A stretch of DNA of 64,000 nucleotides from a virus: positions 1 through 64,000 of the IMG/VR virus record IMGVR_UViG_3300027280_000002; one strand, 5' to 3'. The notes under the pieces were generated by a model. The model had not been told where the DNA came from. It saw only the letters and a list, made by a program, of their open reading frames with translations, and did no database searches. Both the position numbers and the translations under genes were made by a program. Shown piece after piece: positions 8,612 through 64,000 of this stretch. The stretch's first letter is position 1, and every line of letters begins with the position of its first letter.

Positions 8612-8749
8612 ATGGCAATACCACCAAGACAGCAAGGCTGGGGACAAGTAGAAGTTCTTCTTTGGAATATTTCAAAGCAATTAGAGCGATTGATTCAGGT
8701 GACTGGTGCACAAAACACCACCACCACTACAACAACAGCAGCACCGTAA
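8612..8749 (+). CDS. 45-residue heptathreonine-tag protein
   Basis: A very small protein with an N-terminal Pro/Gln/Gly segment (MAIPPRQQGWGQ), one amphipathic helix (VEVLLWNISKQLERLIQVTG) and a C-terminal tail of exactly seven Thr followed by Ala-Ala-Pro. The Thr codons are mixed (ACC, ACT, ACA), so the run is kept as protein rather than as a DNA microsatellite. It is the first gene of a unit that continues with a glycosyltransferase and a second tag protein. The helix may dock on a virion or enzyme partner, with the tail as a glycosylation target. Function is unknown; that it is a real gene is likely from the conserved tail. Confidence 0.7.
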   Translation: MAIPPRQQGWGQVEVLLWNISKQLERLIQVTGAQNTTTTTTTAAP

Positions 8750-8776
8750 TAGTAAACATAAACCAACAACTACATA

Positions 8777-9796
8777 ATGAAAGATTTAAAATTTATCTGT
8801 GCTCAACCAGACGACACTTACTATACATGGCAAGTTCACATGTGGTTAGAGAGCTTAAAAGAAATAGGACAAATACACAATGCAATCGTATTAGTCTATA
8901 CACCACAGAAAAGACTCTTTAATGATAAATGGGATCAGATAACAAAACTGTATCCAGAAGCTGAGTTTAATTTCTATAAAGATGAACAAGGTGATCTATC
9001 TAATCTTATTGGTATTTATATACCTGTACTAAGACCTTGGTTACTTTGGAAATACTGGTCAGACCGTCCAGAAATGTCAGAACATGCTGTATTTTACTGT
9101 GATTCTGATATACTTTGGACAGATAAATTTAATATTGATGAATACATACAAGATGATGTATGTTATCTTTCAGATACTAATAGTTACATAAACGCTCAGT
9201 ATTTTGATAGTAAAGTGCATCAGGTTTTACCTGAAAAGTTAGAAGAGTATAAAGCTAGAGATGTGCTTTCTGAAATAGGAAGTGTAATAGGCATAAGTAG
9301 ACAACTTGCTGAAGATAATAATGAAAACTCAGGAGGTGCTCAGTATCTTCTTAAAAATGTAGATGTTTCTTTTTGGAGTAAGGTTATGAATGATTGTATA
9401 TTAATCAGGACCTACCTTCAAAAAATAAATAGAGAATTCTTTAAAGATGAAAATGCTGGTTATCAAAGTTGGTGTGCAGATATGTGGTCTGTATTATGGA
9501 ATCTTTGGGTAAAAGATCAAGAAACTAAAGTAATACCAGAAATGGGATTTGCTTGGGGCCCAGATCCATTAACTAAATTGGAGACACATCCTATATACCA
9601 CAATGCTGGCATTGTAGCAACAGAACAAGGTGGATATCCTTGTTTTTATAAAGGTAAATATCACTCAGGGACTAATCCTATGACTGATCCTCACTTAGAT
9701 GTTGTGTTAAACAACGAAAAAAGTATGAAGCATTGTACTGGTTACTATGCTAAAAAATTGAATGAATTAAAAATTAAATATAACCTAATTTACTAA
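8777..9796 (+). CDS. GT-A fold glycosyltransferase between two tag-protein genes
   Basis: A 339-residue protein. A DSD metal-binding motif (FYCDSDILW, about residues 113-121) follows an N-terminal nucleotide-sugar fold. Later conserved patches are ENSGGAQYLL (about residue 188), a Trp-rich segment (WCADMWSVLWNLW) and HNAGI (about residue 272). The pattern resembles GT families that act on peptidyl or small hydroxylated acceptors, but I could not assign a family number. It lies 27 bases after one heptathreonine-tag gene and 18 bases before another, which suggests those tail Thr residues as its acceptors. The enzyme class is confident; the acceptor is inferred. Confidence 0.78.
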   Translation: MKDLKFICAQPDDTYYTWQVHMWLESLKEIGQIHNAIVLVYTPQKRLFNDKWDQITKLYPEAEFNFYKDEQGDLSNLIGIYIPVLRPWLLWKYWSDRPEMSEHAVFYCDSDILWTDKFNIDEYIQDDVCYLSDTNSYINAQYFDSKVHQVLPEKLEEYKARDVLSEIGSVIGISRQLAEDNNENSGGAQYLLKNVDVSFWSKVMNDCILIRTYLQKINREFFKDENAGYQSWCADMWSVLWNLWVKDQETKVIPEMGFAWGPDPLTKLETHPIYHNAGIVATEQGGYPCFYKGKYHSGTNPMTDPHLDVVLNNEKSMKHCTGYYAKKLNELKIKYNLIY

Positions 9797-9814
9797 CCCT
9801 TTAAATATAAACAA

Positions 9815-10021
9815 ATGGGAAGCATAGACAAACGTCCATTAAAAGCTTTTGTTAGATTCGATGGATCTGGCAGAGTAGTAGCAGGTAGCTTAATCTTACG
9901 TAGGAAAATACCAAAAGTAGGAAACTGGCAAGAAATTGTAGCATACGAGTGTTGCAATCCAACAACTACTACTACTACTACAGCTGCGCCAACAACCACT
10001 ACCACTACTACAGCTGCGTAA
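9815..10021 (+). CDS. 68-residue double heptathreonine-tag protein
   Basis: The N-terminal 48 residues form a small basic beta-like domain (KAFVRFDGSGRVV, then GSLILRRKIPKVGNW, then a Cys pair in YECCNP). The C-terminus is two copies of seven Thr plus Ala-Ala, joined by Pro. Each block is exactly seven Thr with mixed codons. It is the last gene of the tag/glycosyltransferase unit and is followed by a hairpin. The N-terminal domain could be a virion-binding head, with the tail exposed outside. It was not recognised as a known family. Confidence 0.75.
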   Translation: MGSIDKRPLKAFVRFDGSGRVVAGSLILRRKIPKVGNWQEIVAYECCNPTTTTTTTAAPTTTTTTTAA

Positions 10022-10040
10022 ACTAAATTAACCTATATAT

Positions 10041-10067
10041 CTCAAGGATCCAATTAAGGTCCTTGAG
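10041..10067 (+). terminator. Hairpin after the tag/glycosyltransferase unit
   Basis: CTCAAGGA and TCCTTGAG form a perfect 8-bp stem, with a further CC/GG pair possible inside. The following bases are T/A-rich (TTATGTATATATT) rather than a pure U-run, so termination strength is uncertain. Confidence 0.55.
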
Positions 10068-10085
10068 TTATGTATATATTACACA

Positions 10086-10376
10086 ATGGAGATACAAAGA
10101 AAGTTCTTTCCAGCAATTCTGCTTGAGAATGAAAAAGTATATTTTGCTCATCTAGAAGGTGTGATTGATTCAATTGACGAATACTCTAGTATGCAAATTA
10201 CTAAGAGTAATGACTCATACATATTTAGGCTAGCACCTAGTGTTCCTAAGTACGGAGAGTCTTTATTAAAAGAAATATTAAAGCTGCATAACATCTTTAA
10301 AATTAGACTAGATTTATCTAAAAGCATTAAGTCTTCAGGGACAATAGTTTTCAGAATAAATTTGCATGAAGATTAA
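10086..10376 (+). CDS. Hypothetical protein
   Basis: A 96-residue alpha/beta protein with no membrane segment and no recognised motif. It begins with a basic-hydrophobic strand (IQRKFFPAILL), has an acidic middle and a Lys-rich helix (GESLLKEILKLHNIFKIRL). It is separated from the upstream tag unit by a hairpin, and from the next gene by a strong promoter match that overlaps its own 3' end. It could be either an early or a late gene. Confidence 0.5.
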   Translation: MEIQRKFFPAILLENEKVYFAHLEGVIDSIDEYSSMQITKSNDSYIFRLAPSVPKYGESLLKEILKLHNIFKIRLDLSKSIKSSGTIVFRINLHED

Positions 10377-10392
10377 AAATAATGTACATTTG
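10361..10392 (+). promoter_or_regulatory. Full Bacteroidota promoter (TTTG - 20 bp - TACATTTG)
   Basis: A TTTG -33 element at 10361-10364 and TACATTTG at 10385-10392 match the TTTG/TAnnTTTG consensus with 20-base spacing. It is 31 bases before the ATG at 10423 and overlaps the end of the previous gene, so it should start transcription of the basic-protein cluster. It is one of the two best promoter matches in the window. Confidence 0.7.
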
Positions 10393-10422
10393 TAGCTATA
10401 ATAACTTTTAAAACTAAATAAA

Positions 10423-10683
10423 ATGGCAGATTACAATCCTAACAGCAGGTACACTTGGAAACCTGAAGACAAATTTCAAATAACTGGACAACAGTTCGGT
10501 TTAATATTAAACATGGTCAGATCTTATCTGGGAACAGAAGAGGCTGGTAAATTCATGTTAATGCAACAAACTAATGATGTTATTGAAAGCATTATGAAAG
10601 ACGGTGTTAAAGAAGGTGTAATTATAGAGGCACTAGAAGAAGAAACACCAGCACCTGTTCCTGCATTGGAAGCAGTAAAATAA
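10423..10683 (+). CDS. Small conserved phage protein, possible virion-associated
   Basis: An 86-residue, mostly helical protein with an aromatic N-terminus (NSRYTWKPED) and a Gln/Met-rich middle (GQQFGLILNMVRSYLGTEEA). The C-terminal tail is rich in Glu, Ala and Pro (EALEEETPAPVPALEAVK), reminiscent of an exposed or cleavable tail. It is first after a strong promoter and leads into the lysine-rich genes, so it is likely co-transcribed with them. No family was recognised. Confidence 0.5.
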   Translation: MADYNPNSRYTWKPEDKFQITGQQFGLILNMVRSYLGTEEAGKFMLMQQTNDVIESIMKDGVKEGVIIEALEEETPAPVPALEAVK

Positions 10684-10707
10684 AAAACAATCAAAACTTA
10701 AGAACTT

Positions 10708-10890
10708 ATGCCTGTAAAAAAAGCTAAGGGAGGGAAGAAAATGATTAAACGTAAGGATGGATCCTATAGCAAAAGAGGGCTATGGGATAACATCCGTGCG
10801 AATAAAGGTAGTGGTAAAAAGCCCACTAAAGCTATGTTAAAGCAAGAAAAAAAGATTAAAGCTAAGAGTAAGAGGGGCAAGAGAAAATAA
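10708..10890 (+). CDS. Lysine-rich basic protein 1
   Basis: A 60-residue, strongly basic protein (over a third Lys plus Arg). The central segment RGLWDNIRANKGSGKKPTK and the following MLKQEKKIK recur, as far as I recall, in small basic proteins of many Bacteroidota phages. It is the first of four consecutive Lys-rich genes. Binding to DNA or RNA in the capsid or cell is the simplest inference; there is no enzyme motif. Confidence 0.65.
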   Translation: MPVKKAKGGKKMIKRKDGSYSKRGLWDNIRANKGSGKKPTKAMLKQEKKIKAKSKRGKRK

Positions 10891-10893
10891 ATT

Positions 10894-11028
10894 ATGAAAG
10901 ATAATAATTATTGTACTACAACAGCCTCACAATGTTCATGTGGACAAAGTCAAGATCCCAATGGTTACTGTGATGGTTCTCACCTACAAGTAAACACTGT
11001 TGAGCATGCCCACATTAAAAAAAGCTAA
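10894..11028 (+). CDS. 44-residue CDGSH-type iron-sulfur-like protein
   Basis: Too short for routine gene calls but clearly patterned: C14-S-C16, then S-Q-D-P and C26-D-G-S-H30. This is the three-Cys, one-His ligand set of CDGSH (mitoNEET-type) 2Fe-2S proteins, with one extra residue before the third Cys compared with the usual spacing. The ATG is 3 bases after the previous stop. The C-terminus overlaps the next gene by 23 bases. If functional it would be one of the smallest such domains. It could instead bind zinc. It lies inside the lysine-rich cluster. Confidence 0.6.
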   Translation: MKDNNYCTTTASQCSCGQSQDPNGYCDGSHLQVNTVEHAHIKKS

Positions 11029-11191
11029 AAAAGGCACTAAGAGTAAAAACTGGATACAAGGTGTAAATAAGTCTATCAAGAAAAGAGGGACTAAAGGAAA
11101 ATGCACACCAATCACTAAGAAAGGTTGTACCGGTAAAGCTAAAGCTCTTGCAAAGACATTTAAAAAAATGGCTAAAGGTCGCAAGAAATAA
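11006..11191 (+). CDS. Lysine-rich basic protein 2
   Basis: A 61-residue, highly basic protein with two Cys (KCTPITKKGCTGKA). I chose the ATG at 11006 over a TTG six bases upstream, because the sequence then begins MPTLKKAKK, like its neighbours. It overlaps the CDGSH gene end. It shares short KAKKGTK and GCTGKAKAL-type patches with the neighbouring basic proteins, suggesting local duplication. It is probably a nucleic-acid-binding or packaged protein. Confidence 0.6.
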   Translation: MPTLKKAKKGTKSKNWIQGVNKSIKKRGTKGKCTPITKKGCTGKAKALAKTFKKMAKGRKK

Positions 11192-11193
11192 TT

Positions 11194-11490
11194 ATGGCTA
11201 GAAAGAAAACAAAAGCAATTCGTAAGACCACTGGTAAAGGTGGTAACTATAGAAAGACTAAGTCTGGTGCTGGTATGACTAAAAAAGGAGTCAAGGCATA
11301 CAGGAAGGCTAATCCTGGCAGTAAACTCAAGACTGCAGTAACAGGAAAAGTTAAAAAGGGAAGCAAGTCAGCAAAAAGACGTAAGTCTTATTGTGCAAGA
11401 AGTTTGGGACAGTTGAAGAAAAGTTCTGCAAAGACTAAAAATGATCCTAATTCTAGAATAAGACAAGCTAGAAGAAGGTGGAAATGTTAA
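11194..11490 (+). CDS. Lysine-rich basic protein 3 (DUF6321-like)
   Basis: A 98-residue basic protein. The segment GAGMTKKGVKAYRKANPGSK followed by LKTAVTGKVKKGSKSAKRRKSYCARS resembles a small basic family seen in many phages, which I recall as DUF6321. It ends in an Arg-rich patch (RQARRRWKC). It begins 2 bases after the previous gene. In other phages the role is not established; its charge suggests DNA or RNA binding, possibly inside the virion. Confidence 0.7.
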   Translation: MARKKTKAIRKTTGKGGNYRKTKSGAGMTKKGVKAYRKANPGSKLKTAVTGKVKKGSKSAKRRKSYCARSLGQLKKSSAKTKNDPNSRIRQARRRWKC

Positions 11491-11508
11491 CACTCAAATT
11501 ATATAATT

Positions 11509-11796
11509 ATGATGCGTAAATACAAATCAGGCGGAGCTAAAAAAGCAAAGTCTGGAACTAAAGTAAAAATGGCTAAGTCTGGAACAAAAGCTAAAAAGAT
11601 GGGGTATGGTGGCAAAGCTGCTTCTATGACTCCTCCTAAATCTAAAATGAAGGCTAAGTCTGGTTCTACTCTTAAAAAGGCACCAGCAGGTTCAAAAGGA
11701 AAGGGAATGAGATCTCTTCCTAAAGCTGTTCGTAATAAGATAGGGTTTGCTAAGAAAGGTAGTAAGACACGTAAGTGTAAGTCAGGTTGTAAGTAA
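11509..11796 (+). CDS. Lysine-rich basic protein 4, repetitive
   Basis: A 95-residue protein built from repeats of (A/M)-K-(A/S)-K-S-G-(T/S) (for example KAKSGTKVKMAKSGTKAK), with a Gly/Met-rich middle and a Cys-containing end (TRKCKSGCK). Composition is like H1-type histone tails. It is last in the basic cluster. The 112 bases after it hold no clear gene or strong terminator before the opposite-strand block begins. A role in DNA condensation is inferred only from composition. Confidence 0.6.
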   Translation: MMRKYKSGGAKKAKSGTKVKMAKSGTKAKKMGYGGKAASMTPPKSKMKAKSGSTLKKAPAGSKGKGMRSLPKAVRNKIGFAKKGSKTRKCKSGCK

Positions 11797-11908
11797 TATC
11801 ACATACAAAACATGAACTTGTAAAGACTGTTCCATATTACATACGTAATAAGTAACAGCAACATGCACACAGACAATCTTAACATTTCATCTTTTGGATT
11901 TTCTGGAC

Positions 11909-12058
11909 TCATACTTTCATAACATTTTTATAAGCTTCTTCATAAACACTTTGTAGAGGCTTATTAGGATGCTCGTTTCTAATTCTAGTTACTTCTCTAA
12001 ACAAAGAACTTCTTTGTCCGTGCTCTTCAGCACCATATACAATATCTTCTATACTCAT
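11909..12058 (-). CDS. 49-residue hypothetical protein at the end of the leftward block
   Basis: A short open frame (MSIEDIVYGAEEHG start; helical, with a balanced charge) lying 3 bases after the glycosyltransferase gene in the same direction. It has no recognised domain. Codon use looks like its neighbours, and the tight spacing argues for a real gene. Nothing in the sequence shows its role. Confidence 0.5.
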   Translation of the reverse strand: MSIEDIVYGAEEHGQRSSLFREVTRIRNEHPNKPLQSVYEEAYKNVMKV

Positions 12059-12061
12059 ATA

Positions 12062-12706
12062 CTATTTTTTTAATAATCTTCTTTTCCAAGTTGATACGTT
12101 AGACGCATGTTCTAAATAATACTTCCACTCTTCAGGTATACAACAATCATCTATATACCAAGGTCTGTGCTGTATACAATAAGGTCTGTCTAATCTTATT
12201 GCATCATAAGAAAATGGCATATTAGCTCTATATAATGCAAATGTAGTATCTACATGAGCATCCCATCCCAAATCAATTTTATTCTCCCAGTACTTAGCCT
12301 CATGTGCATATGATTGTTTACCTATATCTGTATTGGGTAAGTCTTCTATTTCTAATGAGAACCCTATTTTAGGGGAACCTGGTTGGTTTATAGCATGTAA
12401 CATTACATCTAACCAATCATCAGGAACATTATCATATATACAATCTGTATCCGCTACAATAAAATAACCTTTACGTAAATGTTTATACTTAGAAGCCCAT
12501 GCTGAGTAAGGACCCTCATTCTTTGCATAGTGAATTTCTTCAGTAATTGTTTTATAAAATTCTAACAATGGAGGATAGGTAGATTCTTGATCAAGTATAT
12601 GAATCTCTACTCTAGGCTCTTTTCTTAAGAACTCTAATGTATTTTTAAGAGTAGTCAAAAGATTCCTATTAATTAGTAGTGCCTTTATTTTGCTAGTTGT
12701 GTACAA
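12062..12706 (-). CDS. GT-A type glycosyltransferase-like protein
   Basis: A 214-residue protein with a short Rossmann-like start (IKALLINRNLLTTLKNTLEF), a DTD metal motif (FIVADTDCIYD, about residues 84-94) and a C-terminal acidic/aromatic patch (PWYIDDCCIPEEW) that may hold the acceptor site. It overlaps the next upstream glycosyltransferase gene by 14 bases. Three such genes lie in a row (12062-14049), suggesting stepwise building of one glycan. It is short for family 2 enzymes but retains the donor-site core. Donor and acceptor are unknown. Confidence 0.7.
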   Translation of the reverse strand: MYTTSKIKALLINRNLLTTLKNTLEFLRKEPRVEIHILDQESTYPPLLEFYKTITEEIHYAKNEGPYSAWASKYKHLRKGYFIVADTDCIYDNVPDDWLDVMLHAINQPGSPKIGFSLEIEDLPNTDIGKQSYAHEAKYWENKIDLGWDAHVDTTFALYRANMPFSYDAIRLDRPYCIQHRPWYIDDCCIPEEWKYYLEHASNVSTWKRRLLKK

Positions 12707-13265
12707 ATAAAACTTTATTTATTTTAAACATTTCTTTTTCTGTAAACTTCTTTTTAAACTGTTCTACAAACCAACCGTCAGCATCATATTTTACTCCAAG
12801 ATCTATTTGCTGAGCTAAGTCTCTTCTAGTAGCAAAAGCTCCCATATCTATTTGATTAGTGTGAGGGTGACATTTAAAGTATTCATAATTATAATGAGAG
12901 TGTACCATATCCCAATAAATAAACCCAGGAGAGTTAGCTGTTGCTGTTCGTAATTCAGCAACAAAGTTTGGTGTATAGTAGTTATCATCTCCAGTCATTA
13001 TTATATATTGAGCATCTGACATTTGTTTACCACGCTCTCTTAATGTATGTCCCCAATCATTATACCGCTTATCCATAAAGGTGCAATATATTCTAGGGTC
13101 ATTGAAACTCTTTACTATATCAGATATTCTTTCACTTTCTGTATCATCTATAACCACATGAGCGCTCCAGTCAGCATCTGTTTGAGCTGTAAGAGAAGTT
13201 AGCATGCAGATTAAAGGCTCATGCCTATTATATGTAGGAATAATAAACTCAACTAGAGCTGACAT
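12693..13265 (-). CDS. Family 2-like glycosyltransferase
   Basis: A 190-residue GT2-type protein. It has the N-terminal FIIPTYNRHEPL strand-loop, a VIDD loop near residue 39 and a GDDN metal-site motif (MTGDDNYYTPNF, about residues 90-101). It lacks the long C-terminal acceptor domain of full-length enzymes. It overlaps both neighbouring glycosyltransferase genes. It probably transfers a sugar to a phage or host glycan; the target is not shown by the sequence. Confidence 0.8.
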   Translation of the reverse strand: MSALVEFIIPTYNRHEPLICMLTSLTAQTDADWSAHVVIDDTESERISDIVKSFNDPRIYCTFMDKRYNDWGHTLRERGKQMSDAQYIIMTGDDNYYTPNFVAELRTATANSPGFIYWDMVHSHYNYEYFKCHPHTNQIDMGAFATRRDLAQQIDLGVKYDADGWFVEQFKKKFTEKEMFKINKVLFVHN

Positions 13266-14049
13266 AATCTTTTAGCATTTGTTTATAATCCTGTTTCCAT
13301 GAAGGCACTAAATGTACATCACCTGTAGGTATCTTACCAGCTTTACGCTGTGATTCTACATGAGCACTATGACGTTTAATGATATCAGGTCTTGATCCAT
13401 CATCTGTACCCATACCGGATTGATGATAACCTCTACCTCCCCACATATAAAACCACGAAGCTTCACTGTCCGGCATCTTAACATCTACTTTACCACCTAA
13501 AGCATGGATTCTATTAGTTAAGGTCATGTCACCTCCTGCGTTCTCTAGAGGACTTTTACCTATTCTTTCCCATACATCTTTACTATATACAATACCAGAG
13601 TTACCTACACCACTTATAGCTGTAATAGATGGCTCATTGTAGAACACACCTGTTTCCCAGTGAATAATATTAGTATCCTTCTTCCAGTGTCTAGCTACGT
13701 TGTTTAGATGATTAGGTAAGGCCACATCATCATCATCCCATACAGCAATAAGCTCCCCTTTGCATCTTTCAATAGCATAGTTCTCTTTCTCACCTATAAG
13801 AGAAAAAGTTTCATCAAGATTATATATTGTGACTTGTGGATGAGGATAGTGTAACTTCTGAAGAGGGTAATCATTGACTATTATTAGCTCGCACTTATCT
13901 TTTGGATAGTCTTGAATAAGGAAACTATGTAAAGATTCTACTAATAAATCTGTTCTTCCATAAGTTATACACTTACAAGAAATAAAAGGCAACTCTTTGT
14001 TTTCTATAACATGAGCTGCCTCTGTTCCTGATATTATTTCATAACTCAT
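13249..14049 (-). CDS. Family 2 glycosyltransferase
   Basis: A 266-residue GT2 enzyme: N-terminal ISCKCITYGRTDLL, then IIVNDYP, the metal-binding VWDDDDVALP and a C-terminal Trp/Gly-rich patch (FYMWGGRGYHQSG). The start is taken at the ATG at 14049, which overlaps the stop of the GroES-like gene (TAATG), rather than at a TTG two codons upstream. It is first of the three-gene glycosyltransferase run. The enzyme class is confident; the substrate is unknown. Confidence 0.85.
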   Translation of the reverse strand: MSYEIISGTEAAHVIENKELPFISCKCITYGRTDLLVESLHSFLIQDYPKDKCELIIVNDYPLQKLHYPHPQVTIYNLDETFSLIGEKENYAIERCKGELIAVWDDDDVALPNHLNNVARHWKKDTNIIHWETGVFYNEPSITAISGVGNSGIVYSKDVWERIGKSPLENAGGDMTLTNRIHALGGKVDVKMPDSEASWFYMWGGRGYHQSGMGTDDGSRPDIIKRHSAHVESQRKAGKIPTGDVHLVPSWKQDYKQMLKDYVSSS

Positions 14050-14342
14050 TACCAAACATGGATAATGTCAAATGGAGAAAGAAGTAAAACTTCTTGATCA
14101 TCTGTAAGGGGAATTAAGAGTGCGTCTTTTAATTTCCCTGGGTCTACTAACACTTCGTCACCTTCTTTGAATGTTGTTACTAGATCTCCAACATCATAAA
14201 CTTTTAGTCTAGACATTTTCTTTAACATTTCTCTTTGTAGAGCTTCTTTAGTGTTAGCATCTACTTCAAGTTTACTTTTCTTTCTTTCAGGTACTTCTAC
14301 GTATACACGGTTGCCTAAAAGTTTGCTGTATGGTTTTTTCAT
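14049..14342 (-). CDS. GroES-like co-chaperonin
   Basis: A 97-residue protein with GroES-like layout: an N-terminal strand (LLGNRVYVEVPE), a flexible charged middle corresponding to the mobile loop, VGDLVTTFKEGDEVLVDP, and a C-terminal strand pair (EVLLLSPFDIIHVW) matching the GroES EVLIMSESDILAIV region. Phage co-chaperonins such as T4 gp31 direct host GroEL to fold the capsid protein. The identity between these families is low, so this is a topology-based call. Its stop overlaps the glycosyltransferase start. Confidence 0.55.
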   Translation of the reverse strand: MKKPYSKLLGNRVYVEVPERKKSKLEVDANTKEALQREMLKKMSRLKVYDVGDLVTTFKEGDEVLVDPGKLKDALLIPLTDDQEVLLLSPFDIIHVW

Positions 14343-14638
14343 AATTCTATATTTGTTAGTTTTTCAAATCTTATTTTATCGTCACCACTTAGATAAGCTT
14401 CTGTTTGAAACACTTCAACTTTCTTTTTTGTACCAATTACTTTATTGGTTTTGGTGTTAATGTTAGGCACTTCTGTAACACGCTCATGCATGTCATCTAA
14501 GAGCACTACACGCATATCAGATGATGTTTGTACACTTCTGATTACTTTATTTAAGTTAATGCTATCGGTGAACTCTGCATATTCTACAGGTTCTGTATCC
14601 TCAATAGCTTCTTTTCTTGTGTAAAAAAATTGATTCAT
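14339..14638 (-). CDS. Hypothetical protein
   Basis: A 99-residue soluble protein, start MNQFFYTRKEAIED, with a helical acidic first half and a beta-rich second half (RVVLLDDMHERVTEV, then KKKVEVFQTEAYL). Its stop overlaps the start of the GroES-like gene by 4 bases (ATGA). No family was recognised. The coupling suggests common expression with thioredoxin and the co-chaperonin. Confidence 0.55.
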   Translation of the reverse strand: MNQFFYTRKEAIEDTEPVEYAEFTDSINLNKVIRSVQTSSDMRVVLLDDMHERVTEVPNINTKTNKVIGTKKKVEVFQTEAYLSGDDKIRFEKLTNIEL

Positions 14639-14650
14639 TATTTTTGGTTT

Positions 14651-27882: not shown

Positions 27883-28017
27883 TTAATCTTCCCATTGTTC
27901 GATTGCTGTTAATTTTATATTAGATGATAAACACTGCGCACAGTCAGTTTCTTTTGTGTTGCTAATAAAGTCATCTTTACAGTCATTACAATAGTATTCG
28001 TATTCAAATTTTCTCAT
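27883..28017 (-). CDS. 44-residue zinc-ribbon protein
   Basis: A short frame between the glycosylase and epimerase genes. It has two Cys pairs (YYCNDCKDD and CAQCLSSN), the usual pattern of a single zinc ribbon. Its ATG overlaps the epimerase stop (ATGA), supporting a real, coupled gene. The segment 27819-27882 after it shows nothing further. Confidence 0.65.
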   Translation of the reverse strand: MRKFEYEYYCNDCKDDFISNTKETDCAQCLSSNIKLTAIEQWED

Positions 28018-28892
28018 ATTATTGATTTTATCCAATTAATTAAACTTACTTGTGGTGTCCAACCCAAGTCTTTCTTTATTTTACTTATGTTGCTTAAAGA
28101 TCTCTTAGCTTCTTTTCTAGCAGGTATAAATTTTATATTATTACTAAATGCTTTAGCAATATCTATGATCTTTACCTCCTGACCAGAACCAACGTTCCAA
28201 GTTCCTTTAGTTCCTATTGCAGCTATGATAGCATCAACTACATCTTTAACATATACAAAGTCTCTGGTCTGTTGACCATCTCCTGTTACTGTTAGCTCAA
28301 GATTATTCTTAAATTGATTCAGAAAGATAGGTACAGCTGATAGGTATCCACCTTCATTGAGCTGTCTCTCTCCAAAAACATTAAAGAATCTTAATACTGC
28401 TACAGAAACATCATCTGGTACTGTTTTACAGAGTGCTTCCATCATATACTTAGATGTTGCATATGGATTCAATGGGTCTAAATCACTATTTTCTGATAGA
28501 GGAAAGCTTCTTGAATTACCATACACAGCAGCTGTAGAAGCTACAACTATCTCTTTACAACCACACTGTTTAATAGCCCATTCAAATAAAAGAGCTGAAC
28601 CATCAACAATTTGATCATGGTACTTCTGTTTATTATTTAAACTTTCTTCTACAGACACAGGCGCTGCTAAATGAATGAGTGTATCAAACTGCATATCAGG
28701 TAAATGTCCCCACATAGCATTACCTACCTCGTAGATTATTACTAAAGGTTGAGGCTTTAATGGAAATAAGTTCTTAACCTTTCCAGTGCTAAAGTTATCA
28801 AGGATTATTATCTCTTGCCCTAGCTTCTGTAGTTGTTCACATAAATGACTTCCAATAAAACCTGCTCCTCCTGTTATTAATACCCTACTCAT
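28014..28892 (-). CDS. NAD-dependent sugar-nucleotide epimerase / dehydratase (GalE-like)
   Basis: A 292-residue extended short-chain dehydrogenase. It has the NAD-binding GGAGFIGSHL, the catalytic Ser-Tyr-Lys set (VASTAAVYG, then YATSK), RFFNVFGERQ and the substrate-side GDGQQTRDFVYVKDV. These enzymes interconvert UDP- or other nucleotide sugars, so it could supply donor sugars for the phage glycosyltransferases. The start is the ATG at 28892, which overlaps the upstream stop (TAATG), rather than one four codons earlier. The exact substrate cannot be read. Confidence 0.88.
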   Translation of the reverse strand: MSRVLITGGAGFIGSHLCEQLQKLGQEIIILDNFSTGKVKNLFPLKPQPLVIIYEVGNAMWGHLPDMQFDTLIHLAAPVSVEESLNNKQKYHDQIVDGSALLFEWAIKQCGCKEIVVASTAAVYGNSRSFPLSENSDLDPLNPYATSKYMMEALCKTVPDDVSVAVLRFFNVFGERQLNEGGYLSAVPIFLNQFKNNLELTVTGDGQQTRDFVYVKDVVDAIIAAIGTKGTWNVGSGQEVKIIDIAKAFSNNIKFIPARKEAKRSLSNISKIKKDLGWTPQVSLINWIKSII

Positions 28893-29131
28893 TAGTTTAT
28901 ACATAATGCACTTGTTTCTACATCTATCTCATCTGGGTTTATGTTCATCACTCCTGTAACATATGCATTCTCTAATCCTTCTGTATTCATAATTGATGGA
29001 CTGTAGAACACTTTCTGATAAGAGTTACCCTCTGCATCTTGAGAATAGATTACTTCTAATTCAGCTATCTCAGGATTTTTCTTTAACAACTGTGTAAGGT
29101 TGTTTACATATTCATTAACTTTCATAATCAT
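28892..29131 (-). CDS. Small conserved hypothetical protein
   Basis: A 79-residue acidic protein: a helical start (NEYVNNLTQLLKKNPEIAE), a strand pair (LEVIYSQDAEGNSYQKVFY) and an acidic end (NPDEIDVETSALCIN). It has an ATGA overlap with the DUF932-like gene and a TAATG overlap with the epimerase. A second ATG two codons later is also possible. Function is unknown. Confidence 0.55.
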   Translation of the reverse strand: MIMKVNEYVNNLTQLLKKNPEIAELEVIYSQDAEGNSYQKVFYSPSIMNTEGLENAYVTGVMNINPDEIDVETSALCIN

Positions 29132-55404: not shown

Positions 55405-56541
55405 ATGAGTACATTCGCATTAACCACGTTATTCGTGGTGCCAGTAGGTCAGACAACTCTGCCTAGCACTGGTTCGACTCAAGACCTTACAAAAGGTCAA
55501 GTAGGATTTTTCAATAGCTCCTATGCTACAGTAAACGCTGGAACAATAGCTGCTTCTCCGTATTTCTACGTAGCACAAGGTAGAGAAAACACCTATTTAC
55601 AAGGATCAAAAAGATCTGACAAAATTAAAGGATGCCCAACAGCTGGTGCTTCTTGCAACTCTAACGTTACAGAATGGTACAAAGCTTCTGGTTGTGATAC
55701 TGCTGCTAACCAAATTACTGACGTTACAGACTTTAAAGTACAATGTGGTGAAATAGTAACATTAACACTACGTGCTTTTTCTAGTTATATTAATACTTTA
55801 TACTTCAACGGATTTACACGTTCAGTAACCGTACAAGCTCCATGTTGTGAATGTGGAGGTGATGTATGTACTGATGTTGACACTAACGCATTAATCAACT
55901 CTTTAATTGCTAAGTTAAACCAAAGCGCTCCTGGAGATAATCCAGATAACGTATCTTTTAAAAGTTTCTTTACTTTTGAAAATGTTGGTGGAACAATACT
56001 AAGAATCCACGGTAAACCATTAACTAAATATGGACAACCATGTGACGTTGCTGCATTCCCATTTGAATATGATAGAATGTACTTCAACACATTTATATAT
56101 GATGGACCAGCTACTACTGCTGATTTTATTGTTGCTGATTCTTGTAACATTGTTGCAACCTCTACCATAACTCAGACTTCTACATATCCTTCAGGACTTT
56201 CTGCTGAATGGAAACAAGCAGAAATTAATTACTATAGCTACCAAGCTGGGTATTTAAAATCTCTATATAGAATGGGTGGATACAACGAGAACTTTGAGTC
56301 TTATGTGACTGAAGGAACTGTATATGATAGCTACTATATTCGTTTTAATGAATATGATAAAGGAGCATACCAATGGGGTGACTATATCCATCAAGATTCT
56401 ATCGTGATGATTGCTGTCCCAAATGAAGCGTCAGTTGCTGGTATTGCTACTGCTGTAGAGGCTGTCTTAGTTGGAGCTTTAGGGCCTGTTGTTGATAACA
56501 ATGAGTGTATCACAACTACAACTACTACAACTGCTGCTTAA
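55405..56541 (+). CDS. Virion structural protein with C-terminal heptathreonine tag
   Basis: A 378-residue protein, Thr/Tyr-rich and probably beta-structured (for example SSYINTLYFNGFTRSVTVQA, then a Cys-rich CCECGGDVCTD). Candidates are tail tube or a decoration protein. The C-terminus is exactly seven Thr followed by two Ala, identical in form to the tags on the 8612 and 9815 products. A strong terminator follows, so it ends the head/connector unit. The tag on a long structural protein places the tags on the virion. Confidence 0.7.
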   Translation: MSTFALTTLFVVPVGQTTLPSTGSTQDLTKGQVGFFNSSYATVNAGTIAASPYFYVAQGRENTYLQGSKRSDKIKGCPTAGASCNSNVTEWYKASGCDTAANQITDVTDFKVQCGEIVTLTLRAFSSYINTLYFNGFTRSVTVQAPCCECGGDVCTDVDTNALINSLIAKLNQSAPGDNPDNVSFKSFFTFENVGGTILRIHGKPLTKYGQPCDVAAFPFEYDRMYFNTFIYDGPATTADFIVADSCNIVATSTITQTSTYPSGLSAEWKQAEINYYSYQAGYLKSLYRMGGYNENFESYVTEGTVYDSYYIRFNEYDKGAYQWGDYIHQDSIVMIAVPNEASVAGIATAVEAVLVGALGPVVDNNECITTTTTTTAA

Positions 56542-57198: not shown

Positions 57199-57200
57199 TT

Positions 57201-57317: not shown

Positions 57318-60300
57318 ATGTTATCACCAAGACTAACGAATTGTAAAGAATGTGCAAACATTCCTGATTTACTTAGAAAAATAGATTGTAAATTAGCAGA
57401 GCTAGGAAACAACTTATACAACAATGTTGTATTTATGTTGAACAGACCTATTGCTGTTAGTCAGATTTCAGAACTGTTAGTATACAAACGTGTACTAACT
57501 TTTCGTTATTGTGATACACATTATGCATCAGGATGTCCGGAGGTAAGTACAGAAGATATTGCAAGCAAGGTTATTCGTCTTACTGCTGGTTGTGTTTCAT
57601 TATGTAATGAACCTACAGTGTGTGAGATTACAACATGTGCTATAATTCCTTGTCCTAATCCAACAACAACAACTACAAGTACCTCTAGTACCAGCACTAC
57701 TACAACCACTAGCACCACAGCAACACCAACCACCACCACTACTACAACGATAACCCCAGATTGTAGAATAGAAGGATGCTTTGATATTATAGCTTTATCT
57801 ACTACAACTACTTCAACATCTTCAACATCTTCGACTACTACTACTAGTACAACTGTTGTACCGTTTGATTGTGCAGAGCCATTTAACTTAAGTTCTCCTG
57901 AAGCCTTTCCTAATGCTATCACTGGAAATGGAACTAAAGTATTGAGTAATGGAGTTTTGCTAACTACATCGTATACTCCAAATACGTTTAACCAACCTCC
58001 TATCTATGTAGCTGGCGTCCCAGGCACAACAGAAGTATGTAATGGAGCATATGTAACTTCTCAGTCTGGTGGACAAGGAACATTGTCAATGCGTGGAGGT
58101 TCAACTGTTGTAATGGACTTTAATCCTCCAATAAATGCTATAGCGCTTGTCACTCAGGGTTATGGTTCTAGTAAAGATCCATCAGCGCAAGAGACTGTGG
58201 TTATAACATCTACTGATGTAATTGTTGCTACTGAATTAACAGCATGTGGTGACTATGCAACAACACAAATAAGTCAAAATGAAATTAATTTAACTGGATC
58301 ACAAGCTCTTTATCCAAACTATTCTGCAGGAGTTACAGCAATTTCACCAATTAGTGGAGGTATAAGTCAATTACAAATTACAATTAACCCACCTGCTGAT
58401 GCATTAGCTGGTATTGGTTTTGATTTTTATGTATGTCCTGGCAGTAGTCCAATAACTACGACAACAACTAGCACGTCTAGTACAACTACTACTACAACAA
58501 GTAGTTCAACTAGTACAACTACTAGTACGACTACAATTGTACCAACAACAACTACAACTACAACAATTGCTGCATGTGTGGATTGTATTCCTAGTGATGT
58601 AACAATTGGAACACAAACCTGGAGTAAGTGTAATTTAAATGTTGATACATATTTAAATGGTGATCCAATTCCAGAAGTAACAGACCCAAGTGCTTGGGTA
58701 GGATTAACTACAGGAGCTTGGTGTTACCATAGCAATGATTCTGCAAATGAACCAACTTATGGAAAATTATATAATTGGTTTGCTGTTAATGATCCAAGAG
58801 GGTTAGCTCCTGCAGGTTATCATATTCCAACTAATGATGAACTAATTACATTAATTAATTATATTGACCCAGCTTCATCAGGAGGTGCAACTGTACCAAA
58901 TAATGCAGGAGGTCCATTAAAAGAAGTACAATTCTGTCATTGGGATGCACCTAATACTGCAGCAACAAATAGTTCAGGTTTCACAGGTCTTCCAGGAGGT
59001 TTTCGTGAGCCTCTCTCTGGGGTGTTTGGTGGTATTAATGAGGGTGGTACATGGTGGAGTAGTACAGACGAGATAGTAGGGCCTGATGCTTTTGCTTTTA
59101 GTTTATACAATAATCAGACTTGGGCGTATAGAAATGACTGGAATCAAAATCACGGTTATTCAGTTCGTCTAATAAAAGATACAGGAACTACAACAACCAC
59201 CACTTTAGCACCAACAACCACTACAACTAGTACATCTAGTACATCAACTACAACTAGTACAACAACTGTTGCTCCTACTACAACTAGTACAACAACTGTT
59301 GCTCCTACTACCACTACTACAACTACAGTGGTGGCACCAACAACAACTACAACCACAACGGTAACACCTACTACAACTACAACAACAACTATTACACCAC
59401 TAGTTGGATGTCTAGAGTTTGACTATTTAAGTCTTATAGTTAGTAGCGATTGGATTCTAGATCCACCTACTGACTCTCTATTTGCTCGAGCAGATTATTT
59501 TACAGGACCAACTACAAACACAACAAGTTATACCAACTGGTCTCAAGTTCCAAATACCAACTATGATGTAGTATTTAATATAGGAGGAGTAGACTATACA
59601 GCAGTGTATCAATTTATCAATGTTGGAACTGGAGGAGTTACTGTTCCTTATGGTAAATTTAGTGTTAACAGTGTCAACTTCTCAGCTATGTCTACATTCC
59701 AATTTTCAAAGATAGATGCAAATGGTAATGACTTATCATCAATACTTTCTACCTTTGATCATACAACTGGAGATGGTTATAAAGTTACTGCATATGGAGA
59801 TTGTACAACACCAACAACAACAACTACAACCACTGTAGCTCCAACAACAACAACTACAACCACCTTACCTGTTTTCCTTTGTACAGATCCACTACTAACA
59901 GTATCTTTACCTGATGGAATTGTAGGAGATCCACTGAATGGAAGTGTTGTATATGATGGACTCAATCTAGCTATAACTGGTTACACTTATGGTGGGGGTA
60001 ATACAACTGTATATATTGCTGGAACAGTTGCTTATACGCTTGCATTTATTGTTCCTTCAGGATATAGTAACTCAGGATCTGCTACTGGTTGCGCTGTTGC
60101 AGCAACTGGTACAACACCAACAACTACAACTACAACAACTGTTGCTCCTACTACTACAACTACAACCACTAGTGCAAAAAGCTACGATATTAATTGGCAA
60201 GTTGATGGAGGAGGAAATGGATTTAAAGAAGCAGAATTACAATTATTTAAAAATGGAGCGAGTGTAGTAACTCAAGTTATTACTAATGGCACGCCTTCGG

Positions 60301-60920
60301 TACAAGGATTGTTTTCAAGTTCTAACGGTGATGTTATTAATGCTAAACTTACTACTAAGAACTTAACAAGTGAAGAGACTCAAGTGCAGAATAGTTTTTC
60401 ATTGATAGGAGCAGGAGGTGGAGGTCTGCAAGAATTAGATACAGGTATACTACAACCACCTGCTGGTGGAGTCACAAATTCACTTGCGACTAGTTTTAGT
60501 ACTGGATATACTCAACCTGGTGTTACTAATGGTCCTTTATTATTATTTAAAGTAAATCAAGAACAAATAGCATCATCTGAAATTACTATGTCGCTTACTA
60601 ATAACGGTGCTAATTTTAACTTTGAAATAGAAGATAATGATCAGCCAGGTGATCCTGTAGTATTGAGTATACCAACAACTGGTCCACTTTGGAATGGTAA
60701 TTATTATTATGACTTCTTAGTTGGTAGAGAATATACAGTTACATTTCCATATTCAAACAACGAAGTTGGAGGTGTATCTACTGAACTAGTTATAAGCGGT
60801 GGTGGAATGACACCATTTAGCGATCAGGTGGATAATCCTTCTGGTTCAGTAAACACTATAACCCATACATTTACAGTATTAAATGCTACATCAATAGTAA
60901 TTGAAGCATTTGAATATTAA
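57318..60920 (+). CDS. Large modular adhesin with FISUMP domain and heptathreonine joints
   Basis: A 1200-residue protein. Residues 1-115 are a Cys-rich N-terminal domain. Thr/Ser-rich joints then separate several beta-rich modules: about 180-370, the FISUMP domain at about 418-621 (TIGTQTWSKCNL, then YGKLYNWFAV, GYHIPTNDEL, FTGLPGGFRE, WWSSTDE, YSVRLIKD), about 695-830, about 855-930 and 950-1200. Nine joints contain exactly seven Thr, mostly as P-T7-(V/I)-(A/T)-P. FISUMP is a lectin-like fold known from Bacteroidota and Fibrobacter surface proteins. Probably a receptor-binding tail protein whose joints are stiff, glycosylated spacers. Confidence 0.8.
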   Translation: MLSPRLTNCKECANIPDLLRKIDCKLAELGNNLYNNVVFMLNRPIAVSQISELLVYKRVLTFRYCDTHYASGCPEVSTEDIASKVIRLTAGCVSLCNEPTVCEITTCAIIPCPNPTTTTTSTSSTSTTTTTSTTATPTTTTTTTITPDCRIEGCFDIIALSTTTTSTSSTSSTTTTSTTVVPFDCAEPFNLSSPEAFPNAITGNGTKVLSNGVLLTTSYTPNTFNQPPIYVAGVPGTTEVCNGAYVTSQSGGQGTLSMRGGSTVVMDFNPPINAIALVTQGYGSSKDPSAQETVVITSTDVIVATELTACGDYATTQISQNEINLTGSQALYPNYSAGVTAISPISGGISQLQITINPPADALAGIGFDFYVCPGSSPITTTTTSTSSTTTTTTSSSTSTTTSTTTIVPTTTTTTTIAACVDCIPSDVTIGTQTWSKCNLNVDTYLNGDPIPEVTDPSAWVGLTTGAWCYHSNDSANEPTYGKLYNWFAVNDPRGLAPAGYHIPTNDELITLINYIDPASSGGATVPNNAGGPLKEVQFCHWDAPNTAATNSSGFTGLPGGFREPLSGVFGGINEGGTWWSSTDEIVGPDAFAFSLYNNQTWAYRNDWNQNHGYSVRLIKDTGTTTTTTLAPTTTTTSTSSTSTTTSTTTVAPTTTSTTTVAPTTTTTTTVVAPTTTTTTTVTPTTTTTTTITPLVGCLEFDYLSLIVSSDWILDPPTDSLFARADYFTGPTTNTTSYTNWSQVPNTNYDVVFNIGGVDYTAVYQFINVGTGGVTVPYGKFSVNSVNFSAMSTFQFSKIDANGNDLSSILSTFDHTTGDGYKVTAYGDCTTPTTTTTTTVAPTTTTTTTLPVFLCTDPLLTVSLPDGIVGDPLNGSVVYDGLNLAITGYTYGGGNTTVYIAGTVAYTLAFIVPSGYSNSGSATGCAVAATGTTPTTTTTTTVAPTTTTTTTSAKSYDINWQVDGGGNGFKEAELQLFKNGASVVTQVITNGTPSVQGLFSSSNGDVINAKLTTKNLTSEETQVQNSFSLIGAGGGGLQELDTGILQPPAGGVTNSLATSFSTGYTQPGVTNGPLLLFKVNQEQIASSEITMSLTNNGANFNFEIEDNDQPGDPVVLSIPTTGPLWNGNYYYDFLVGREYTVTFPYSNNEVGGVSTELVISGGGMTPFSDQVDNPSGSVNTITHTFTVLNATSIVIEAFEY
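59274..59399 (+). repeat. Tandem heptathreonine spacer repeats
   Basis: Four consecutive units of Pro plus seven residues (one T3-S-T3, three T7) with V-A-P, V-V-A-P, V-T-P and I-T-P links. DNA copies differ at synonymous positions (ACA, ACT, ACC, ACG), so they are protein-level repeats, not a simple DNA microsatellite. Confidence 0.8.
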
Positions 60921-60942
60921 TAACAAATAAAATAAAAAAATT

Positions 60943-62025
60943 ATGTCAACACAAAATTGCTCAAATTGTTATAACGGATGCACTGAAATTACTTCAGACA
61001 GATGTGTTAAATATACAGGAGTAGATGTTCCTATTTTAGGAATACAGACTGGGGACTCTCTATCTTTTGTAGAGCAGGCTATTATAACTTTCTTAAGTTC
61101 TACAATTGATGGAACAGGAGTATTTCCTATAATACAACCAACTGATATATGTCCAATCGTAGAAGCTAACTTGCCAGTATGTGATCCGCTTTCTTTAAAC
61201 AATTATCTTACAGGTATAGTTCAAACTATCTGTAACTTAAATGAACAAATACAACTTATAGAAGAAAGTGAACCAACCAGTGCATATGAGGTAGGATGTG
61301 TGTCAGGAGTAACAGATAACACTTCTACTCAAGATGTTTTACAACAAACTATAGTAAAGTTATGTGAAGTTGAGCAATCACTAAATACTTTCATTACAGA
61401 TGTTACTACTAACTATGTAAGAATCGTTGATATAAATACATATATAGATAACTATTTTAACACTAACCCTACACAACAATTAATAAATAATAGAATGGTT
61501 CCATTCTCTGCTCAACCTTATTTTGGAGACTTGTCTCCATTTAGTCAGTCAGGAGCTGGTATAGGCGTTTGGGATAGAATCTTTTTATGTAATGGGCAAA
61601 ATGGAACACCTGATCTTAGAGGAAGAGTACCAGTTGGTACTACTAGTGGAATGGGAGGAGCTTCGTTAGATTCTGCAGTTGACCCTAATGTAGCTGGAAA
61701 CCCAACATATAATCTTAATACTCCTGTTGGAACTAACAGTGTTACATTAGGTATTACACAAATACCTTCACATACACATACAATTACCATTGGACCATCA
61801 ACGCCTACAATAACCCCTACAGGAAAGGCAGCAGGACCTTACGTTGGTAATAATATTGGTGGAGGATTTAAAGGTGGGGATAATGACTTTAAAATGAGAT
61901 CGTTTGTAGCAGATCCCCTTCCACCGCATTCACATTCTGCTACAATAAATCCGACAGGTGGAGGATTATCACATGATAATTTTCAACCTGGCCTTGGATC
62001 ATATTATATAATTTACATACCTTAA
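60943..62025 (+). CDS. Tail collar-domain protein (microcystin-dependent/gp12-like)
   Basis: A 360-residue protein. The N-terminal 120 residues are Cys-rich (CSNCYNGC, DICPIVEANLPVCD). The C-terminal half matches phage tail-collar proteins: FLCNGQNGTPDLRGRVPVG, ITQIPSHTHTI, PLPPHSHSATI and DNFQPGLGSYYIIYIP. Pairs of H-x-H residues in this family can bind iron along the trimer axis, as in T4 gp12 and gp37. The likely role is a short tail fibre or adhesion tip. Confidence 0.85.
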   Translation: MSTQNCSNCYNGCTEITSDRCVKYTGVDVPILGIQTGDSLSFVEQAIITFLSSTIDGTGVFPIIQPTDICPIVEANLPVCDPLSLNNYLTGIVQTICNLNEQIQLIEESEPTSAYEVGCVSGVTDNTSTQDVLQQTIVKLCEVEQSLNTFITDVTTNYVRIVDINTYIDNYFNTNPTQQLINNRMVPFSAQPYFGDLSPFSQSGAGIGVWDRIFLCNGQNGTPDLRGRVPVGTTSGMGGASLDSAVDPNVAGNPTYNLNTPVGTNSVTLGITQIPSHTHTITIGPSTPTITPTGKAAGPYVGNNIGGGFKGGDNDFKMRSFVADPLPPHSHSATINPTGGGLSHDNFQPGLGSYYIIYIP

Positions 62026-62037
62026 AATAAAAACAAA

Positions 62038-62349
62038 ATGGCATACTTACCTGTAAATCCTTGTTGCACAGATGTAGTTTCAAACACTCCTTGTGGATGT
62101 TCAAGCACTACAAGCAATAATCCTTGTGCAACTGGGGTACATTATTCAAAGTCTATTACATACAATGGACCTGTATTACCTTGTTCAAATGTGCAACCTT
62201 GTGATGATTTAAACATTGCTTTGTCTAAAATTGACGCAATTATTTGTACATTGGTAAACCAACAAGCAATCAATACATCTGAAATTGCTACTATAAAGCA
62301 GCAAGTAATAAGTATAAATCAAACATTAACAACTTGTTGTGACTCATAA
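62038..62349 (+). CDS. Cys-rich small tail protein
   Basis: A 103-residue protein with many Cys (NPCCTDVVSNTPCGC, VQPCDDLNIALSKIDAIIC, TTCCDS) and a helical middle (DDLNIALSKIDAIICTLV) with an Asn/Ile heptad (TSEIATIKQQVISINQTL). Its N-terminal pattern resembles the Cys-rich N-terminal domains of the neighbouring fibre genes, perhaps for docking. It shares its last base with the next gene start. Confidence 0.55.
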   Translation: MAYLPVNPCCTDVVSNTPCGCSSTTSNNPCATGVHYSKSITYNGPVLPCSNVQPCDDLNIALSKIDAIICTLVNQQAINTSEIATIKQQVISINQTLTTCCDS

Positions 62350-62597
62350 TGGAAGCAATCTTAACACTAAATACAGCAGGAAATAATACTGGATCTTTTA
62401 ATCTGTTTTCAGACGTAGATGGATTTAGTGTTGCTTTTCAAACAAATGTAACTAAAACCCAGTTATTGAATGGGTATACAGCTGTGATGCCTGATTACAC
62501 TACTATAGTAAAAGTAGCATCAGGTTCAGTTTGTAAAAATAGTATTGAGATAACACTAGAACAAACAACCACAACAACCACCACAATAACACCGTAG
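62349..62597 (+). CDS. Heptathreonine-tag stub protein, paralogue of the next gene's N-terminus
   Basis: An 82-residue protein. The first 70 residues (LNTAGNNTGSFNLFSDVDGF, then FQTNVTKTQLLNGYTA) align with the first 70 of the next gene product. It ends in seven Thr plus I-T-P, exactly the joint sequence used in the adhesins, but stops there. It therefore looks like a docking domain that ends at its tag. Start overlaps the previous stop (TAATGG). Confidence 0.75.
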   Translation: MEAILTLNTAGNNTGSFNLFSDVDGFSVAFQTNVTKTQLLNGYTAVMPDYTTIVKVASGSVCKNSIEITLEQTTTTTTTITP

Positions 62598-62601
62598 GAC
62601 A

Positions 62602-64000
62602 ATGACAATACTTATAACATTAACTTTAGCAGGCATAGATACAGGTCCATTTGATCTATATTCTGATGCAGATAATTATCAAAATGCATTTGAGACTAAT
62701 GTTTCCAGACAAGATCTATTGAATGGTTACACTTCTAATAATGCCCCTGTTGGAACTACTACTGTTAGGTTAGATAGTACAAATCAGACTTGCGGTTCAG
62801 TGGATATATATTCTTGTGTTAGACCAAATTGTGATTTTACAGGAGAGATAATTTGTGATATTACAACAACTACAACCAGTACATCTTCATCTTCAACTAC
62901 AACTACTACTACTACATCAAGTGGACCTGGACCAATTACTTCACTATGTCTTTGGTCAACTCTTAACGAAGGAACCTCCGGAGAACTAGGAGTATATAAT
63001 ATAGACACCAATGTAGTAACTACAGTATTAGTTCCTAATGACTTTTTAGTAACCCAAGGTGTAACTAGACCTATATGTAGTACACAAAATAAACTTTGGT
63101 TAGCTAGTGAAACAGACCTTACCCAGAACAACTTTATAATTAGAGAATATGATGTAACTTTTACATCAGGTAATGTAGGTTTATCTTTTACAAGAGACAT
63201 TACTGTTAGCACACAAGGTATCCTATCATACCCTGGTTATTCTAGAGTTGGTTCTGAATGTACGGCACTAACTGCTATTAATGATACAAGTATAATAATA
63301 GTTTTTGGTGGACCAACTGCTACTGTTATTTCACCAGATGTATGGGGTTTTACTATTGATATAAGTCAAACAGGTAATATTGCTAAAAATCTAACATCTA
63401 GTATTGGAAGAACTGTTAAACCTGTAATAAATACCTATGGTAAGGTTGTTTCAAACCCTAGACTACTATATCTTAATAACGGTGATGTTATTACTAGTAT
63501 GAGGATGGATGGCGAAGTTGATGGTCCTTATAATGGGAATTATCTACAACAATACAACATTTCAAATAATGATCGTATAACTGGAACTATGAAGTTGCAG
63601 GATTTAGGCATTCCAGAATTTACCGTTAATTACACTTCTGAGAAATATATAGATATATTCTCAATAAATAGTAAATTATATGCTCTTCAACCAGAATTAA
63701 ATAGAGTATATGAAATATCACAAACTCCTGACTACCAACAACAATCATCAAATCTTGTAGGTACAAATGTAAAAAGTTTATCTACAACTAGTGGTTGTGC
63801 AGATATTACCCTTTATGCAGAACCAGAATGTGAATCTACTACAATACCTAATATGTACGACCAAGCAGGAGATGTGTACATAGGTCCAGTACCGTTTACG
63901 TATGCAGGTGTGACTGTTATGGCTAGTAGTACACTTGCTGCTGGATCTAACGGAATTGTTGGTACTGGTGGAGGGGTGACACTATATAAGTTGTGCGCTT
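62602..64000 (+). CDS. Adhesin with tag-joint, 3' end outside window
   Basis: The frame is open from the ATG at 62602 to the window end (466 codons). The N-terminal 70 residues (LTLAGIDTGPFDLYSDADNY, then FETNVSRQDLLNGYT) match the stub gene just before. A Thr/Ser joint (T5, S-T-S4, T7, SSGPG) follows at about residues 90-115. The rest has repeating beta segments with LWSTLNEGTSGELGVYNIDT and SLSTTSGCADITLY, like a propeller or fibre domain. It is likely an appendage protein using the same docking domain as the stub. Confidence 0.75.
   Translation, partial: MTILITLTLAGIDTGPFDLYSDADNYQNAFETNVSRQDLLNGYTSNNAPVGTTTVRLDSTNQTCGSVDIYSCVRPNCDFTGEIICDITTTTTSTSSSSTTTTTTTSSGPGPITSLCLWSTLNEGTSGELGVYNIDTNVVTTVLVPNDFLVTQGVTRPICSTQNKLWLASETDLTQNNFIIREYDVTFTSGNVGLSFTRDITVSTQGILSYPGYSRVGSECTALTAINDTSIIIVFGGPTATVISPDVWGFTIDISQTGNIAKNLTSSIGRTVKPVINTYGKVVSNPRLLYLNNGDVITSMRMDGEVDGPYNGNYLQQYNISNNDRITGTMKLQDLGIPEFTVNYTSEKYIDIFSINSKLYALQPELNRVYEISQTPDYQQQSSNLVGTNVKSLSTTSGCADITLYAEPECESTTIPNMYDQAGDVYIGPVPFTYAGVTVMASSTLAAGSNGIVGTGGGVTLYKLCA

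Follow-up and report, generated by a model that had tools for sequence, protein, structure and literature searches.

Poly-threonine tags and an adjacent predicted glycosyltransferase suggest virion O-glycosylation in a crAss-like phage

Virion glycosylation has been described for the mycobacteriophages Che8, Corndog, and Myrna (Freeman et al. 2023, as cited in PMC12363180, PMC11256854, and PMC12619734), where the phages' own glycosyltransferases (GTs) are reported to glycosylate capsid and tail-tube subunits (PMC12363180; PMC12619734). This study examined the first 64,000 nucleotides (the window) of the 111,329-base IMG/VR virus record IMGVR_UViG_3300027280_000002, in which runs of seven consecutive threonines (T7) recur in proteins of a crAss-like phage and a predicted GT gene lies between two of the genes that carry them (Table 1). 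Judged from the sequence and a structural model, the T7 blocks are very probably Ser/Thr acceptor tags of a phage-encoded protein O-glycosylation system. Sugar-coating sites are their most likely identity because the predicted GT is encoded between two tagged genes here and beside tags in unrelated phages. Virion glycosylation as such is already known in phages; the form proposed here, with Thr tags and a dedicated enzyme, differs from the known system of Che8, which shows no detectable relative of this enzyme, and the open literature searched contained no description of Thr tags or poly-threonine in phages.

Six-frame translation of the window yielded exactly 15 pure T7 runs in six proteins, recovering all of the blocks listed in a preliminary description of this DNA, and no pure Thr run longer than seven; two further T7 runs lie in the remainder of the record, at 67012 and 77724. 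The same description had held that every pure block is seven residues long, which must be amended for a pure T6 at 59187-59204 (context TG-T6-LAP); T5 and T6 runs were also found within mixed T/S stretches. Four of the six tagged proteins end with the block, as had been noted, the residues after it being AAP, AA, AA, and ITP. Shuffling of residues within the six proteins gave a mean of 0.01 and a maximum of 2 T7 runs, against the 15 observed. Codon use in the T7 blocks is mixed (ACA 46, ACT 40, ACC 17, ACG 2).

Relatives' loci were retrieved with tag-free queries (the enzyme of the open reading frame (ORF) at 8777-9796 and the body of ORF 55405), and run lengths were counted over distinct contexts, which are partly dependent because homologous sites recur. 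The resulting distribution has a sharp peak at seven, the pattern that the preliminary description had proposed to look for: among 310 distinct pure Thr runs, T5, T6, T7, T8, T9, and T10 occurred 7, 7, 231, 57, 7, and 1 times, such that 75% (231/310) were exactly seven and 93% were seven or eight residues long. Mixed T/S blocks peak likewise (seven in 309 and eight in 143 of 551). A unit typically reads P-[TS]7-[VA]-A-P, with Ser commonest at heptad position 4, an exchange that a hydroxyl requirement would predict. Only 38% of pure runs were seven in phages of Bacillota that carry this enzyme family, where the distribution is broad, and 18% in contigs chosen for tails of nine or more Thr (T9+) without the enzyme. 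Among homologues of the 55405 protein, a C-terminal tag was present in 79 of 80 contigs, in the forms T7, T8, T5, TTTSTTTT, and TTTTTTSS, and its T7 versions were encoded by 13 distinct codon strings. Because of the length peak, this conservation, and the synonymous codon strings, the tag appears from sequence comparison to be selected as protein, in line with the selection proposed earlier from codon variation, with a length of about seven preferred in the crAss-like clade but not required. A strict rule of exactly seven is ruled out by the T5-T10 runs of relatives and by the varied tails of the 55405 homologues. The earlier suggestion of a defined, enzyme-recognised unit is well supported by the length peak, the synonymous conservation, and the coupling to a GT gene (below), while its strictly fixed length gives way to 5-10 residues with Ser in place of Thr at times.

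The preliminary description was right about the blocks at 8612 and 9815 but missed the enzyme encoded between these genes. ORF 8777-9796 matches phrog_4417 (E 1.6e-51, profile positions 1-289 of 293), a family annotated as "unknown function" and also called "prophage pi2 protein 34"; the sources searched gave neither a GT assignment for it nor any connection with Thr tails. W18, D109, D111, H275, and K292 are invariant in 94 homologues; D109 and D111 form the DxD metal/nucleotide-sugar motif. Sequence searches against PDB chains, both with the enzyme and with the auxiliary capsid profile treated below, gave nothing useful, so fold comparison was needed. The enzyme model (predicted local distance difference test score (pLDDT) 96.5, predicted template modelling score (pTM) 0.93) found as its top PDB matches glycogenin (best; GT8), UGGT (GT24), and alpha-1,3-galactosyltransferase (GT6), with E of about 1e-6 to 1e-4, probability 1.0, and moderate TM-scores of 0.4-0.66. 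By this model, the product of ORF 8777-9796 has a GT-A glycosyltransferase fold. It is not classed in the GT8 sequence family, whose curated Pfam model gave no match (E up to 1). One crAss-like clade has a divergent version of the enzyme of 315 amino acids (L422:7621-8565, L424:2717-3661), with the flanking tagged genes kept. Enzyme subtype was considered as a determinant of tag length, the auxiliary capsid protein of this clade carrying T5; its other tags are T7 or T8, so no simple rule relates subtype and length.

The enzyme gene and the tags are tightly coupled. T/S tags lie within 1.5 kb of the enzyme gene in nearly all of 80 crAss-like loci (exception L060), and in many of them a T/S tag closes the protein encoded immediately before the GT homologue. 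The enzyme was present in each of the eight records of 110 kb or more that have a 55405 homologue, and (ACN)6 runs were present in 6/6 GT-positive genomes and in 0/10 GT-free crAss-like or terminase-related phages. Homologues in Bacillota phages and prophages have 25-31% identity to the enzyme, and a Thr-rich C-terminal tail was found at or just before the enzyme gene in 34 of 35 Bacillota genome loci (32 by a density rule plus L307 and L317, whose tails fall below the threshold; L293, with its match in another frame, was set aside). The tailed protein is the major tail protein (MTP) in some loci and one of various unrelated major capsid proteins in others, and a pair that moves between unrelated capsid and tail proteins fits an enzyme that glycosylates the tags. 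The enzyme gene follows genes whose products have Thr-rich tails in phiFL1A (MTP), Lactococcus 1706, and PMBT8. In vipetofem and VPE25, Thr repeats occur both close by and on the MTP. The L. casei phage PLE3, whose phrog_4417 gene is gp09, has them on gp08, the major head protein, and the MTP, the last two of which end in T7-S-K; in prophage bIL285 of L. lactis IL1403, with orf45 as its phrog_4417 gene, the MTP ends in KT9RHD. LP65 (L534; orf50, orf51), whose copy of the enzyme is the most divergent, has TTTETQTQTQ tails instead of poly-Thr, perhaps a different acceptor motif.

A controlled comparison used 65 loci of MTP homologues retrieved with a tail-free query and counted if at least 1 kb of downstream sequence was available; 14 had both tail and GT, 42 had neither, and one had a GT with no tail on the MTP. 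The tail was therefore always accompanied by a GT (14/14), and 42 of the 43 loci with a tail-less MTP had no GT (Fisher p 2e-12, a value that ignores relatedness). In the single remaining locus (L407), the GT gene is at another place, immediately behind the gene of a small protein whose C-terminus reads T11-AAP-T7-SSED. On the MTP tree, tail and GT require nine changes each, at least five of these on supported branches, and both changed together in all five independent pairs with support (p 0.06 by sign test, the minimum for five pairs).

The phage carries the Crassvirales hallmarks, an assignment made by gene families: its terminase, portal, and major head protein match the crAss-like families phrog_6681, phrog_6547, and phrog_11589, and its muzzle protein, encoded beyond the window, matches crAss_MUZ (PF25731, E 3e-35) and contains the T7 at 77724. 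The model of the 55405-56541 protein (pLDDT 73, pTM 0.62) matches chain 7qof_a (E 1.4e-9, probability 1.0), which is gp36, the phicrAss001 auxiliary capsid protein, present in nine copies per asymmetric unit (PMC10172136). The auxiliary capsid gene lies four genes past the major head protein gene in phicrAss001 and three in this phage; the tag of its product is predicted to be disordered (residues 370-378, pLDDT < 50).

Table 1. Thr-tagged genes and candidate sugar enzymes of the window.
Position	Strand	Product	T7 blocks	Remarks
8612..8749	+	45-aa protein, C-terminus T7-AAP	8717-8737	directly upstream of GT homologue
8777..9796	+	phrog_4417 protein, predicted GT-A glycosyltransferase, probable tag modifier		between tagged genes 8612 and 9815
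9815..10021	+	68-aa protein, C-terminus T7-AAP-T7-AA	9962-9982, 9992-10012	
55405..56541	+	auxiliary capsid protein-like, C-terminal T7-AA	56512-56532	structural match to phicrAss001 gp36
57318..60920	+	1200-aa adhesin-like protein, Fib_succ_major domain	nine, starting at 57729, 58545, 59307, 59340, 59370, 59814, 59844, 60120, 60150	also one T6 (59187)
62349..62597	+	82-aa protein, C-terminus T7-ITP	62565-62585	
62602..64000	+	start of ~920-aa protein, T5-STSSSS-T7 linker	62896-62916	runs beyond window
3171..6665	-	1164-aa methyltransferase + GT4-type + GT9-type fusion; candidate for glycan elongation/methylation		Pfam
28014..28904	-	NAD-dependent epimerase / GDP-mannose-dehydratase-like		PF01370, E 7.5e-48

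The other tagged proteins are less readily placed. The 57318-60920 protein looks like an adhesin; its Fib_succ_major domain (amino acids 428-620) differs from that of a near-identical contig (L032) in clustered positions (WAYRNDWN versus SAYRGDTK), a pattern that resembles the target of a diversity-generating retroelement, and no reverse transcriptase was found among the few ORFs scanned. The small tagged protein of 9815-10021 had no match in a distant search among named phages. The proteins of 62349-62597, 62602 onward, and 66733-67822 of the record have in common an N-terminal domain (L.L...G..TG.F.L.SD.D.), with Thr tags after it, and are probably paralogues. Elsewhere in the record, a long repetitive ORF (107257-111328; L011) gives rise to long shadow ORFs in other frames.

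The tags with their length peak, their close linkage to the enzyme gene, the fold and catalytic motifs of the modelled enzyme, and the assignment of two tagged proteins to known virion components are the observations from which we infer a reaction, together with its site, its sugar, the order of the enzymes, and its benefit. In the infected cell, the GT-A enzyme would place an initial sugar on the Thr and Ser hydroxyls within the flexible runs, and the methyltransferase-GT4-GT9 fusion may lengthen or methylate the resulting glycan. With tags on its auxiliary capsid protein, muzzle, and adhesin linkers, the virion would be coated in sugar and bear stiff, mucin-like stalks, features that could shield it, keep it soluble, or aid sticking. 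Glycosylation is the simplest account; it accommodates a flexible, hydroxyl-rich run, Ser/Thr exchange, an exposed placement on the virion, and joint gain or loss of tail and GT. In 32 of 85 stretches searched, a homologue of the fusion lies in the equivalent position, most of the others being too short on that side; the clade with the divergent enzyme has such homologues as well. The 28014-28904 protein might, on its family match, have some part in nucleotide-sugar supply.

Several other explanations were weighed. The runs might be unmodified flexible linkers or stalks, their length and Pro spacing set by mechanics and the enzyme gene an incidental neighbour, as the many blocks between folded domains of the adhesin and the poly-Thr tails in contigs lacking a phrog_4417 match would allow; however, small proteins also end in tags, where there is nothing to link, and the MTP coupling (14/14 versus 42/43) with its repeated joint gain or loss is unexpected for an incidental neighbour, which leaves this explanation improbable. 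It is slightly less probable still that a host system, for O-glycosylation or for secretion and sorting, modifies or recognises the tags while the phage GT targets phage DNA or the host surface. Phages do encode GTs acting on DNA and cell-envelope targets, but the same GT family stands beside Thr tails near capsid and tail genes in both Bacteroidota and Bacillota phages and is missing when the homologous tail protein has no tail. Neutral low-complexity sequence arising by replication slippage or repeat duplication can hardly be credited: the tandem P-T7-V-A-P units of the adhesin do look duplicated, with copy number differing among relatives, but the mixed codons and a length peak at seven in place of a decaying distribution rule out slippage as the origin of the runs, and both the C-terminal tag kept in 79/80 homologues and the coupling to the GT argue against neutrality.

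O-glycosylation by the phage enzyme, which remains the preferred explanation, also has observations weighing against it. The enzyme domain had no significant GT match in Pfam (E up to 1) or NCBIfam; the Fisher test disregards relatedness, leaving only the five supported independent pairs; some phages have C-terminal T9-T17 tails with no phrog_4417 match in the contig; and the Bacteroidota cellular homologues of the enzyme mostly have no poly-Thr nearby. As for the tails, a universal need for phrog_4417 is ruled out by its absence from 28 of 29 further records, most of which have a C-terminal T9+ tail; other GT families, found in several of these phages, or contig incompleteness may be the explanation. 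GT2 genes over the cut-off were found in 6/26 tailed records and 0/18 untailed controls, and parallel tag-modifying enzymes in T9+ tailed phages are plausible. In one phage contig that lacks the 4417 enzyme (L490), a GT17, two GT2, and a radical-SAM/SPASM gene lie beside several Thr-tailed proteins, a gene set that is perhaps a parallel tag-modifying system.

The Bacteroidota cellular homologues are fused to a Glyco_transf_7C-like second domain and, in the few loci inspected, sit in grasp-with-spasm or similar peptide clusters. Chromosomal homologues lie near genes of the type that makes ribosomally synthesized and post-translationally modified peptides (RiPPs) in L319, L322, L326, L350, and L356: L319 contains ATP-grasp and SPASM maturases, L350 a GG-leader precursor bearing a Thr run (GGVSWTTTTTTSSVPVTY), and L322 and L356 peptidase-transporter-like ORFs. 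Judged by gene content, these loci possibly encode a class of glycosylated peptides.

A broader proposal, to which we give an even chance, is that of a portable module in which one GT family, spread over tailed phages of two bacterial phyla and Bacteroidota peptide clusters, glycosylates short poly-Thr tags for which any virion protein can serve as carrier, the enzyme of the crAss-like clade having tuned the tag to seven. If these proposals are correct, a phage protein family listed as unknown gains a function, and virion glycosylation would extend well past mycobacteriophages to crAss-like phages and to common phages of Enterococcus, Lactococcus, Lactobacillus, and Staphylococcus. A Thr run together with phrog_4417 would be a readable signature predicting glycosylated phages and proteins, and the short O-glycosylation tag, genetically encoded and served by a cytoplasmic enzyme of its own, could be of use in the laboratory.

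Compared with known systems, the enzyme has its fold, DxD motif, and C-terminal His in common with glycogenin (GT8) and other GT-A protein glycosyltransferases, and glycogenin likewise starts a glycan on protein, as proposed here; it differs from them in its low identity (~11-13%) and in having no significant Pfam GT match. The phicrAss001 virion has the terminase, portal, major head protein, and muzzle families and the auxiliary capsid protein-like fold in common with this phage but, unlike it, has no GT and no (ACN)6 run. Grasp-with-spasm RiPP clusters of Bacteroidota contain homologues of the enzyme in a context, known from few loci, of peptide maturation and not of virions. Lactococcus phage 1358, whose virions are reported to be glycosylated, was not among the phrog_4417 matches listed. 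The mycobacteriophages resemble this phage in that their own GTs are reported to act on capsid and tail-tube C-termini, as proposed here, and Che8 gp108 is a GT-methyltransferase fusion, a likeness to this phage with its 3171-6665 gene. Che8 gp110, unlike the enzyme described here, is GT25-like, no Thr tail was found on the Che8 major capsid protein or MTP, and comparisons of gp108, gp109, and gp110 with the enzyme by hidden Markov models and hhalign were not significant; membership in a Che8-type glycosylation system was rejected on this lack of detectable homology. Unlike in Che8, the acceptor and the enzyme form a recognisable pair here, across phages of both Bacteroidota and Bacillota.

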